NCBI RefSeq assembly: GCF_010669145.1
Contig: NZ_CP048632.1
Coordinates: forward strand, 1,426,001-1,490,000
Direction: 5' to 3'
DNA from: Rhizobium oryzihabitans
GTDB lineage: Bacteria; Pseudomonadota; Alphaproteobacteria; Rhizobiales; Rhizobiaceae
DNA: 64,000 bases
A program made the translations under genes and the position numbers. Positions 2,264 through 62,377 of the stretch are shown piece by piece; within the stretch, counting starts at the first letter, position 1, and the number at the start of each line of letters is the position of its first letter. A model generated the notes under the pieces. The model saw only the letters and a program-made list of their open reading frames with translations. It ran no database searches and was not told the DNA's origin.

Positions 2264-2485
2264 ATGAACAGATTTGAAGGAGGCGGAAACCGTCTCGCCG
2301 TCATCGAATATCTCGACGGTGACTTCCGGATCGTGCAGACCGGCTCGCATGTTGCCTGCGCCATCACCGGCAAGACCATTCCGCTCGACGAACTCCGCTA
2401 CTGGAGCGTGGCGCGGCAGGAAGCCTATGTGGACGCCGCCGCTTCGCTGGAGGCCGAAAAGAAAGCTGGTAATTTGCCTGCGTGA
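2264..2485 (+). CDS. DUF2093 family small protein
   Basis: This 73-residue protein starts MNRFEGGGNRLAVIEYLDGD and fits DUF2093, a small family of unknown function in Rhizobiales and relatives. It has no signal peptide or membrane segment. The ATG follows a purine-rich GGAGACG stretch. It lies downstream of mutL on the same strand and faces lpxK, a neighbourhood I recall as common in rhizobia. The IS110 element now lies between it and lpxK. The conserved YWSVARQEAY segment near the C terminus is the most recognisable part. Function unknown. Confidence 0.85.
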   Translation: MNRFEGGGNRLAVIEYLDGDFRIVQTGSHVACAITGKTIPLDELRYWSVARQEAYVDAAASLEAEKKAGNLPA

Positions 2486-2609
2486 TCAGGCGCGGAAGCA
2501 CGCCCATAAAGAGCCATGCGTGAGAACGCTTCTTTTCACGCTGAGACTGCTCAACTCTCCACCCTCATCCCTGTGCTTGTCACAGGGATCCTGTGTATTG
2601 CGTCTGTGC

Positions 2610-2757
2610 TAGAATGGTAGCGGACGGAAGGCCGTCGGGATCCTGGTCGTTTGAGACCGCTTGCTGGCTCTGGTCCTCCGTCCGCCTTTGATATCCCAAC
2701 CTGAACAGTTGATTGAGGCCGTGAGCGCGGACCTCGAAGCACAGGATGAGGCTTGCC
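2610..2757 (+). ncRNA. Candidate IS110 bridge RNA
   Basis: The non-coding left end can form two guide-bearing loops. Loop 1 is closed by a perfect 9-bp stem, GCGGACGGA (2620-2628) with TCCGTCCGC (2677-2685), and has an inner hairpin GGTC/GACC (2645-2658). Its left side carries GGGATCC (2637-2643), identical to the left flank at 2585-2591. Its right side carries GCTGGCT (2663-2669), the reverse complement of the right flank at 3701-3707. Loop 2 surrounds hairpin GAGGCCG/CGGACCTC (2715-2735). It carries ACAGTTG (2705-2711), identical to the right end of the element (3692-3698), and CACAGG (2740-2745), the reverse complement of core plus left end (2590-2595). This is the target-loop and donor-loop layout of bridge RNAs. 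Transcript ends are unknown. Confidence 0.8.
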
Positions 2758-3687
2758 ATGATACACCCTGTTTTCATTGGATGCGACGTCGCCAAGGCGC
2801 ATCTTGATCTTTTCGACGGCCGGACATCCCGGCATATCCGCATCGACAACACCGCTGCCGCCATTCATGCATGGCTGCAAAGCCTGGAGGGGCAGGAGGC
2901 GACGGTCATTCTGGAGGCGACCGGGCGTTATGACAGGCAGCTGCGCGCGGCTCTCGATCGGCAACAGCGTCCGTATTGCCGGGTCAACCCCGCCCGGGCG
3001 CGCGACTTCGCAAGAGCCACCGGCCGCCTGGCCAAGACCGACGCCATCGATGCCCGCCTGCTGGCACGCATGGGCGAAACGCTTGGCCCCGCAACCAGCA
3101 CACCACCCGATCCGGCCCGGCAGGCGCTTGCCAGCTTCCATACAAGGCGCGATCAGCTCGTTGCCATGCGCCAGCAGGAGCGGCTTCGCCTTTCCAGCGC
3201 AGAACCCATGGAGCACGATAGTCTGGAGCGCCATCTCATCTGGCTGGACGGCGAGATCGAGGCGATCGAAAAAGCCTGTCACGCCCATGTCCGGGAAAAC
3301 GCGGAACTGAACGAACAAAGCACCAGGCTTCGTTCCATTCCGGGCGTCGGGCCAGTCACCGCATTCACGCTGATGGCGCATATGCCGGAACTGGGCGGCA
3401 GCTCTTCCAAAGCCATGGCGGCATTGGCGGGACTTGCTCCCTTCAATGCCGACAGCGGCATCAAACGCGGCCAGCGCCATATTCGCGGCGGACGAAAGCG
3501 CGTGCGCGATGCCCTCTACATGGCGGCGCTGGTGGCTTACAGGCTGAAGACCGCCTTCGCCCGCACGGCGCAAACCATGCAGACCAAGGGCAAACCGTTC
3601 AAGGTCATGATCATTGCCATCGCCCGCAAAATCCTCGTCGCCGCAAACGCAATCCTCAGGGATAAAACCGTCTTTGCTAAAACCTGA
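2746..3687 (+). CDS. IS110-family transposase (DEDD recombinase)
   Basis: The 313-residue product has the N-terminal DEDD RuvC-like domain of IS110 transposases: D14 in IGCDVAKAHLD, E57 in ILEATGRYD, and D99 and D102 in KTDAIDARLL. A helical middle segment leads to the Transposase_20 domain, with RSIPGVGPVTA near residue 197 and NADSGIKRG near 235; S238 is the likely catalytic serine. The frame looks full length and uninterrupted, so the enzyme may be active. An in-frame ATG at 2758 is an equally good start and would leave the whole guide region untranslated. The protein would act with the RNA encoded just upstream. Confidence 0.93.
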   Translation: MRLAMIHPVFIGCDVAKAHLDLFDGRTSRHIRIDNTAAAIHAWLQSLEGQEATVILEATGRYDRQLRAALDRQQRPYCRVNPARARDFARATGRLAKTDAIDARLLARMGETLGPATSTPPDPARQALASFHTRRDQLVAMRQQERLRLSSAEPMEHDSLERHLIWLDGEIEAIEKACHAHVRENAELNEQSTRLRSIPGVGPVTAFTLMAHMPELGGSSSKAMAALAGLAPFNADSGIKRGQRHIRGGRKRVRDALYMAALVAYRLKTAFARTAQTMQTKGKPFKVMIIAIARKILVAANAILRDKTVFAKT

Positions 3688-3825
3688 CAATACAGTTGCC
3701 AGCCAGCCCAAGTCCTTAGGCTGAGAGGACTATTCTCGCCGCGCAGACGCGCGTCGGCTGGATTCCTGTGACAAGCACAGGAATGAGGAGAAGTAGGTGC
3801 ACGGCGGTTTATCTTCTTAGGTACT

Positions 3826-4872
3826 CTAAATCGACGGTCGCGCATGTTCCCGCAGCAGGCGGGCGCGGCAGTTCACCACCGCCGTCTCGATGATCGTTCC
3901 AGCCGCATTGGGATCGTCGAACACCATGTCGATCTCGATCACCACGCTGTTCCACAGCAATTCTTCCGCCCGGCCATGGTGACCGTTGAGGCGTATGGCG
4001 TCCTTGGCCGTCGTCACCAGCTGCAAATTTTGCTTGCCGGCGTCCTGCAGAAGATCGGCGATCTCGTCGTCGCTGAAATGGTGATGGTCGGGAAAGGAGC
4101 GCCGCTCCACGATCTCGCCGCCCACAGCCTCGACGGTTCTGAAGAATTTGGCCGGATCGGCGATGCCCGCATAGGCCAGCACGCGCCTTCCCCTGAAATC
4201 CTGCGGCTCCTGCGGCGTGATTGCGGCTACGAAAACCGGTTTTGCAGCCTTTGCCGCCATTCTCACCAGCGGATCGGCTGCATGGCCGTTGCCGACCTTC
4301 AGAAGTCCCGTCATATGCCGCATCTGTTCGGCAAGCGGCGCCCGGACCGGACCGCCCGGCACGAGATGGCCGTTACCGATGCCGCGCACCGTGTCGATGA
4401 CGACGAGCGCATAATCCAGCGTCAGGCGGGCGCTCTGGAAACCGTCATCCATGATGATGAGGTCCACGCCCTCCTTCACCAGCCGGTGCGCGCCTTCCAC
4501 CCGCTTGCGGGAAATGACGGTCACCGCCTCGCGTGCAAGCAGCAGCGGTTCATCGCCGACATCGGCGGAGCGGTGCTGCGCGGGATCGACAAGGGTGGTG
4601 ACATCAAGCGTGCCGCCATATCCGCGACTGAGAAATCCGGGTTTGAGGCCTTTTGCGACGGCGGCTCTGGCGATTGCCATCGCTGTCGGCGTCTTTCCAG
4701 CACCGCCCACGGTGAAGTTACCGATGCAGATGACCGGAACGTGAACGCTCGCCCGTTTTGCCGTACGCATCCGCCGGCCGGCAATATTGCCGTATAGAAG
4801 GGAAAACGGTGATAACAGCCAGGCCTGCCAGCCTGCTTTCTGCCACCAGAACGGCGGCGCTTCAGAAACCAT
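3826..4872 (-). CDS. lpxK: Tetraacyldisaccharide 4'-kinase LpxK
   Basis: LpxK phosphorylates the 4' position of the tetraacyldisaccharide lipid A precursor at the inner face of the cytoplasmic membrane. The 348-residue protein begins with the typical tryptophan-rich amphipathic region ([14 protein letters not shown]), followed by a Walker A loop [12 protein letters not shown] near residue 52 and the IIMDDGFQ motif characteristic of LpxK. It is the last gene of a leftward envelope cluster with waaA and a HAD phosphatase upstream. A 312-bp gap containing a palindromic repeat separates it from the HAD gene, so it may depend partly on its own promoter. Confidence 0.95.
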
Positions 4873-5050: not shown

Positions 5051-5166
5051 CCGTCTTTCCGGCCTTGTGCCGGAATCCAGTCGACGCGCGTCTGCGCGGT
5101 GGGAAGGTCTCCTTTCAGCCCAAGGACTTGGGCTGGCTGGATTCCGGCTCAAGGCCGGAATGACGG
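5051..5166. repeat. Palindromic mosaic repeat, CCGGCCTT-arm type
   Basis: Outer arms pair TTCCGGCCTTGTGCCGGAAT with ATTCCGGCTCAAGGCCGGAA. The inner part (GTCGACGCGCGTCTGCGCGG, then CAGCCCAAGGACTTGGGCTG) is shared with the copies at 37796 and 62264. It lies between the HAD phosphatase and lpxK. The junction corresponding to the IS110 target reads GGAATCC then AGCCAGC on the minus strand. Confidence 0.85.
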
Positions 5167-37795: not shown

Positions 37796-37912
37796 CCTCA
37801 TTCCCGTGCTTGTCACAGGAATCCAGTCGACGCGCGTCTGCGCGGCGGGAGGAGCCCTTTCAGCCCAAGGACTTGGGCTGGCTGGATTCCTGTGACAAGC
37901 ACAGGAATGAGG
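37796..37912. repeat. Palindromic mosaic repeat, CTGTGCTTGTC-arm type, intact
   Basis: Intact copy of the element that IS110 interrupts at 2563-3788. Outer arms read CCTCATTCCCGTGCTTGTCA and TGACAAGCACAGGAATGAGG, with the shared GACGCGCGTCTGCGCGG core and CAGCCCAAGGACTTGGGCTG hairpin inside. It lies between the converging barrel and glcF genes. On the minus strand it contains GGAATCC followed by AGCCAGC, one mismatch from the sequence at the IS110 insertion point. Confidence 0.9.
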
Positions 37913-62263: not shown

Positions 62264-62377
62264 CCGTCATTCCGGCCTTGAGCCGGAATCCAGCCGACGC
62301 GCGTCTGCGCGGCGAGAAGAGTCTTTTCAGCCCAATGACTTGGGCTGGCTGGATACCGGCTCAAGGCCGGTATGACG
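62264..62377. repeat. Palindromic mosaic repeat, CCGGCCTT-arm type
   Basis: Arms CGTCATTCCGGCCTTGAGCC and GGCTCAAGGCCGGTATGACG with the shared GCCGACGCGCGTCTGCGCGG core and CAGCCCAATGACTTGGGCTG hairpin. Located between the MipA/OmpV promoter and the end of cfa. Confidence 0.87.

Follow-up and report, generated by a model that had tools for sequence, protein, structure and literature searches.

The window analyzed here, a stretch of 64,000 nucleotides, contained an IS110-group element of 1107 bp on the forward strand (2592..3698), accompanied by one additional CC core. Its extent was defined by six identical copies and by an empty site in the relative G025. A small ORF and an oppositely oriented gene, which we take to be a DUF2093 ORF and lpxK, respectively, flank the element. 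The genome of 5.86 Mb carried six copies, 100% identical over the 1107 bp, and four of them were found within 65 kb of contig C4. In the relative G005 the element was present at the same place.

The IS110 DEDD recombinase gene spans 2758..3687 (+). Its start was placed to correspond to that of WP_114836078.1, an annotated relative, and an alternative ATG is located at 2746. Both the DEDD (RuvC) N-terminal domain (PF01548, 63.8 bits) and the Transposase_20 domain (PF02371, 71.1 bits) scored above the Pfam cut-off, and the translated sequence is thus assigned to the IS110 family. The sole solved proteins matched in a PDB search (E 0.001) were the recombinases of ISCro4 and IS621. With numbering from 2746, residues D14, E57, D99, D102 and S237 were aligned to D11, E60, D102, D105 and S241 of IS621, the roles of which are described in PMC11208158 (published papers are cited here from excerpts, except where main texts are named). 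The noncoding DNA of the element amounted to 166 bp upstream of 2758 versus 11 bp downstream of 3687. A long noncoding region upstream of the recombinase gene points to the IS110 group, as it lies downstream in IS1111 elements.

All six copies were inserted into an arm of a palindromic repeat, which consists of two arms approximately 65 bp apart. In the window the left part of the occupied arm (2567..2591, +), recognized by flank sequence, copies, empty site and hairpin, includes the left target CAGGGAT (LT, 2583-2589) and the left core copy CC (2590-2591). The right side (3699..3789, +), defined by the flank sequence of the copies, comprises the remainder of the repeat including the second arm and begins with the right core copy CC (3699-3700), followed by the right target AGC (RT, from 3701). 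Copies at unrelated sites, which would speak against guidance, were not found among the six: each had the left flank CACAGG(G/A)ATCC and the right flank CCAG. The same locus of G025 (L157) showed the unoccupied repeat ...TGTCACAGGGATCCAGCCAGCCCAAG..., reading GGGAT-CC-AGCC. Since this site lacks exactly the element and one CC, the crossover core is CC. A scarless empty site with such a short core is found in the IS110 group. For this comparison 15 of 30 relative loci were viewed; several of these displayed an incorrect stretch or lacked the repeat.

The complete identity of the copies and the position of four of them within 65 kb could also be expected if they had spread by homologous recombination between repeats instead of guided insertion. 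However, the flanks outside the repeat differed in all six copies, the junctions coincided to the base at CC, and G025 lacked exactly the element and CC. We therefore regard such a spread as hardly credible and continue with guided insertion.

A census of free sites, counted in the own genome only, yielded 68 sites of the form CAGGRATCCAGC and none for the reversed control pattern; five of the 68 were second arms of occupied repeats. The motif GGGATCC occurred four times in the window, two of these being the left flank and the guide described below. Unoccupied two-armed stretches resembling the repeat, with 0-2 mismatches per arm to CAGGRATCCAGC, were additionally observed at 5070-5147, 37816-37892 and 62283-62359 of the window.

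The noncoding region upstream of the recombinase gene carries a putative bridge RNA. When a covariance model was derived from 21 relatives, with the window sequence left out, it gave a single match in the 64 kb up to E 1, at 2609..2747 (+; 134.9 bits, E 7.2e-32). This span is the coverage of the model with target and donor loops, not the transcript ends. When 30 further loci were searched, 23 matched below E 0.001 and seven gave no match; the 23 were L193 and 22 loci with recombinases 35-42% identical. A perfect 9-bp stem GCGGACGGA/TCCGTCCGC, noted in the sequence-only reading, was present (2620-2628 with 2677-2685). It is part of the target-loop stem, whose 5' side (2620..2631, +) contains a bulged A2629 and whose 3' side lies at 2675..2685 (+); compensatory changes were found in nine of its 11 pairs. 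Stem covariation also supported the target-loop inner hairpin (2645..2658, +, helix 2) and the donor-loop inner stem of GAGGCCG with CGG-A-CCTC (2715..2735, +, helix 3). An alignment of 22 RNAs, with A22 left out, showed the target-loop stem with its bulged A, the inner hairpin and the donor-loop stem, and its donor guides hardly varied. Double changes were found for 14 of the 21 named pairs. Within 462 cells, 97.8% were paired, compared to 87.4% in shuffles (0 of 500) and 39-49% when the pairs were slid. Covarying stems of this kind are those of a bridge RNA, as far as the alignment can tell.

Folding of the RNA, which had been proposed as a check, was modest by itself (z -1.7; 6 of 200 shuffles folded as well), and fold energy was dropped as evidence. 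The actual support for a structure is therefore the covariation among relatives. A search of 2301-4000 against Rfam at E up to 5 gave no match. In 200,000 single-letter shuffles of 2592-2757 the motifs GGGATCC, ACAGTTG, CACAGGAT and GCTGGC appeared in 1.6%, 0.8%, 0.14% and 8.8%, respectively, and at least two of the four jointly in 0.2%.

The left target guide (LTG, 2635..2643, +) reads TCGGGAT plus the core CC, is made up of the nine bases directly after GCCG and covaries with LT. As stated before, its GGGATCC (2637-2643) equals the left flank at 2585-2591. The right target guide (RTG, 2661..2667, +) reads TTGCTGG and ends in the core complement GG, so that GCTGG (2663-2667) pairs with CC-AGC at 3699-3703. 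Originally, GCTGGCT (2663-2669) had been taken as the guide for 3701-3707. It is indeed the literal reverse complement of AGCCAGC at these positions, but this match arises from the repetition of AGCC within the flank, and as a pairing this register is an artefact and four bases out. Among 38 distinct element-flank pairs of 22 elements, the four innermost RTG positions paired in 37 with the core-inclusive register versus 7 with the earlier one, and at least five of the seven positions paired in 35 versus 9.

In the second loop, the left donor guide ACAGTTG (LDG, 2705..2711, +) was invariant in the 22 aligned RNAs and is identical to the left donor (LD), the right end of the element (3692..3698, +), which was also read from the ends of relatives. 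The right donor guide CACAGG (RDG, 2740..2745, +) is the reverse complement of CCTGTG at 2590-2595, and thus pairs with the core and the right donor TGTG (RD, 2592..2595, +), the left end shared with relatives. Both donor matches had been described correctly. Overall, LTG and RTG match the target, and LDG and RDG match the donor ends, as in the two-loop arrangement of a bridge RNA. The earlier view that target and donor codes can be read from the DNA holds for the left target and both donor guides, while the right target guide needed the correction of its register.

Candidate handshake bases were located next to the guides. The target loop carries C2668 (+), which can pair with donor G3698; this C was found in 23 of 23 elements and the donor G in all 22 with a right end read. 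In the donor loop, AU at 2746..2747 (+) can pair with target A2588-T2589. The base after the RDG and target position 7 formed A-T in nine, G-C in 12 and G-T in two of the 23 elements, which corresponds to Watson-Crick pairs in 21 and is in agreement with the handshake guides expected from PMC11208158. RDG and handshake bases are found shortly before the start of the recombinase gene, where they overlap with the alternative ATG at 2746. In the region 2740-2760, use of the RNA and translation of the recombinase may compete.

To compare guides and sites, 23 elements were read at 71 loci, 69 of them with a left junction (22 elements), and junctions were set from the ends of the elements, independently of the guides. 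The 23 elements carried 16 different left and 17 different right guides. Loops that are not conserved among relatives had been named as an argument against a guide function; the guides varied and the sites varied along with them. The covariation test included 63 loci. On either side 22 elements contributed, with 30 distinct element-site pairs on the left and 31 on the right. LTG positions 2-7 matched their own sites at 88.9%, compared to 47.7% with re-dealt guides, and RTG positions 10-11 at 98.4%, compared to 58.7%; in both cases none of 10,000 deals was as high, though neither deals nor shuffles remove the shared ancestry of the elements. The core letters matched in all element-site pairs. 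Poor matches were found at LTG position 1 (differing in 26 of 30) and position 2 (9 of 30) as well as at RTG positions 12-14 (55.9% matching). The working guide is therefore shorter than its full length.

Several loci were dropped from the counts. L033/L078 had lost the left end. The register was unclear in L112 and L116 as well as at the C-run sites of L104, L105, L106 and L038; L039, a relative of L038, was left unread. L193 is a tandem whose assembly contains N, L121 and L124 duplicate loci already included, and L062 was dropped on its right side, where the end had diverged. L016, L123 and other relatives of about 35-42% identity were outside the counts and entered the model search, the tree or neither. 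Searches around G557, G525 and G447 added one genome and eight copies.

Instead of an RNA, the recombinase itself could recognize the palindromic repeat, by sequence or as a cruciform, with the RNA matches as a by-product and the 5' region as an mRNA leader. All six sites lie in the palindrome, targeting of REP sequences by IS110 elements was known before any guide RNA was proposed (PMC1525189), and a 5'-UTR structure of ISPpu9 regulates translation (PMC8450116). Such recognition is nevertheless very improbable, as guides and sites changed jointly over 22 elements, including other sequences and a CT core, and as the right flank of L005 leaves the guide past CCAG while the site is still used and the left guide region is kept. 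The proposal that the element is guided to the palindromic repeat, where all six copies were found, was thus borne out by the covariation over the 22 elements, as far as this can be judged from DNA, and guidance by the RNA is assumed in the following.

The remaining mismatches of the left guide were not evenly distributed. At LTG positions 3-7, 31 distinct pairs contained 12 mismatches. In nine of these a guide G stood over a target A, which gives rG:dT with the bottom strand, and the remaining three came from L073 and L091, which did not fit their own guides at LTG positions 5-7. L073 (W03:C1:935830-936948) is an atypical S. medicae copy at the site GGCAT-CC-TGTGAC, in the opposite sense of the repeat arm, and on the right it is similar to TGTG of the donor itself. 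In L091 (G447:C15) the left flank misfits the guide; those of four sister copies fit. Both were kept in the covariation test, and the wobble statistics are given with and without them. Without both, the purine cells were 58 G/G, 22 A/A, nine guide G over A and no guide A over G. Over the transition biases assumed, the binomial P ranged from 0.0001 to 0.08 with both loci and from 1e-6 to 0.003 when they were left out. An rG:dT bias of the left guide is suggested rather than proven, and the elements are related by ancestry. Published data include rG:dT at position 4 of IS621 (PMC11208160). The right target guide showed no wobble bias, with 13 of 42 mismatches being wobbles.

In the own genome, occupied sites were GGGATCC in four and GGAATCC in two copies; the free ones numbered 11 and 57, respectively. 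Perfectly matched sites were over-used relative to rG:dT sites (odds ratio 10.4, Fisher p 0.014), with six events being few. When the right side was held to CCAGC, 3 + 1 occupied versus 11 + 57 free sites remained (p 0.021). The guide reading predicts that GGGATCCAGC is used best, GGAATCCAGC less and GGGGTCCAGC nearly not at all.

The core of the lineage differed from that of IS621. Across the 23 elements it was CC in 20 and CT in three. In a tree of 42 recombinases 25 were labelled CC and 17 CT, and 21 CC rows including the element of the window formed one supported group (96/89). Three changes of the core label are required on this tree, and supported branches force two or more of them. In IS621 and its orthologues, T at position 9 is almost invariant (PMC11208158); in the element analyzed here a C would take its place. 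Thus it appears to work like IS621, yet its core, read from the junctions, is not of the IS621 type. L054 (G165) has the core CC and the donor end CAGTCG, and its nearest tree rows are CT; its core is likely an independent change. Residue 63 (numbered from 2746) was considered as a reader of the CC core. Of 20 CC-core rows, 19 had D and one a gap, and the five CT rows had E in three, T in one and D in one. Because one CT row has D and the IS621 core-contact residue G63 is conserved here as G60, this stays a guess. The term "CC core" was absent from the main texts of both IS621 papers (PMC11208160, PMC11208158). A search for work on IS110 bridge RNA and wobble found none; as it covered open-licence literature, such absence is weak.

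The ends of the element may come together as a promoter. At a circle junction, TTG (3696-3698), CC and T2592 would form TTGCCT, which agrees with TTGACA in four of six positions and would be placed 17 bases before the -10 hexamer TAGAAT (2610..2615, +). A -10 of at least 4/6 at a spacing of 16-18 was found in 16 of the 23 elements versus 7% in shuffles, and TGN directly preceded the -10 in 18 of 23. The linear stretch 2500-3800 contained no promoter-like site by the rule of the tool. Therefore, a promoter rebuilt at the circle junction, as expected for a bridge RNA, is predicted from the sequence.

Additionally, the ends carry a short subterminal inverted repeat with the arms TGTATTG (2594..2600, +) and CAATACA (3688..3694, +). 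This perfect 7-bp pair was the longest between the outer 60 bases of both ends and extends beyond the guide-paired bases. In 22 elements the arms covaried, agreeing on average at 5.77 of seven positions versus 4.90 with re-dealt left ends (0 of 10,000), with shared ancestry remaining. A long subterminal inverted repeat as in the IS1111 group (usually 11-13 bp, with the RNA downstream) was absent from the element. Subterminal inverted repeats are stated as not found in the IS110 type in the excerpted text of PMC11187229. The short repeat may have been overlooked there or may be a peculiarity of the present lineage. As to its role, we would guess at symmetric contacts of the protein with the donor junction.

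Some elements were found inserted into other copies. In L105 (G392:C4:27600-29600) the target loop of one copy is interrupted by a whole second element at the position corresponding to the left guide, and the broken outer RNA was recovered downstream as a second weak match (1514-1641). L095 (G447:C21) shows a duplicated RNA start, from the left end to the left guide, followed by a full element; perhaps an insertion into the guide was followed by recombination. L193 (G1131:C1:408000-409627) is a tandem of two left ends with N in the assembly, and its joint is in the target loop and not in the left guide. A side branch (L038, L104, L105 and L106) has C-rich left guides and C-run insertion sites.

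Taken together, 2592-3698 of the window is almost certainly an IS110-group insertion sequence which works like IS621, with expression and activity presumed by analogy. The evidence read from DNA is strong and includes guides, site, empty site, identical copies, covariation and stems. Circle, transcription, strand order and chemistry are inferred from IS621. In the proposed mechanism the recombinase would excise the element as a circle, and the junction TTG-CC-TGTG would complete the promoter transcribing the bridge RNA. This putative RNA would be bound by the recombinase and direct recombination. Its donor loop would pair with the joined ends ACAGTTG-CC-TGTG and its target loop with GGGAT-CC-AGC in an arm of the abundant palindromic repeat, the left guide binding the bottom and the right guide the top strand. 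The top strands would then be exchanged at the CC core, and the handshake bases C2668 (with donor G) and A2746-U2747 (with target T and A) would pair with the product junctions.

Several features might belong together, a joint reading that we put forward tentatively and consider possible, if somewhat doubtful. Wobble would be a design feature in this lineage: at positions of the host repeat that can be G or A, the guide would carry G and read both (rG:dC, rG:dT), while a guide A would stay on A sites. The core would have switched from CT to CC, accompanied by matching changes in both target guides, donor ends and target. A short covarying inverted repeat, unexplained by the guides, surrounds the donor junction. 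Finally, the left target guide has the same sense as its target, which makes the guide gene a half-site in its own right, and elements would sometimes insert into the target loop of another copy and break it, as in L105 and perhaps L095.

Since guide, site, donor ends and handshake bases can be read from the DNA, they can be checked on six sibling insertions and on free sites. The copies and free sites of one genome offer a natural measurement of targeting rules, here an over-use with an odds ratio of about 10 from six events. The CC lineage would widen the cores beyond CT, AT, GT and TT, those reported for IS621 in the excerpts, and is relevant to the engineering of bridge recombinases.

Mechanism and REP targeting have already been published, and the element is a very well resolved further member. 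Our analysis adds candidate handshake bases, a predicted circle-only promoter, the CC core, a covarying 7-bp end repeat and a guide-G/target-A bias. Like IS621 of E. coli (PDB 8wt6; PMC11208160, PMC11208158), it encodes the RNA ahead of the recombinase gene and has left and right guides in two loops, a core inside the target guides, candidate handshake bases, a promoter predicted to be rebuilt in the circle and insertion in REP palindromes, and an rG:dT pair is tolerated in the left target guide. Unlike IS621 with its core CT, the core here is CC with the donor ends ACAGTTG-CC-TGTG, rG:dT was found at LTG positions 3, 5 and 6 instead of position 4, and the recombinases are distantly related (E 5e-35). 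REP sequences and IS110 elements targeting them were described in Sinorhizobium meliloti (PMC1525189), where four of four copies of ISRm19 were in REP sequences. No guide was known for ISRm19 at that time, and the likeness is drawn from the published description. The IS110 elements ISPpu9 and ISPpu10 of Pseudomonas putida and ISPa11 of P. aeruginosa were also found in REP sequences (7/7, 7/7 and 6/6 copies; PMC1525189), though in other hosts and other repeats, and the sRNAs of ISPpu9 were read as regulators (PMC8450116). The noncoding RNA of seekRNA elements, of both IS1111 and IS110 types, matches both target strands as well, and natural redirection was described from ISEc11 to ISXne4 (PMC11187229). 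In contrast to the IS1111 types of that study, with the RNA downstream and subterminal repeats of usually 11-13 bp, the RNA of the element lies upstream and its repeat is 7 bp long.
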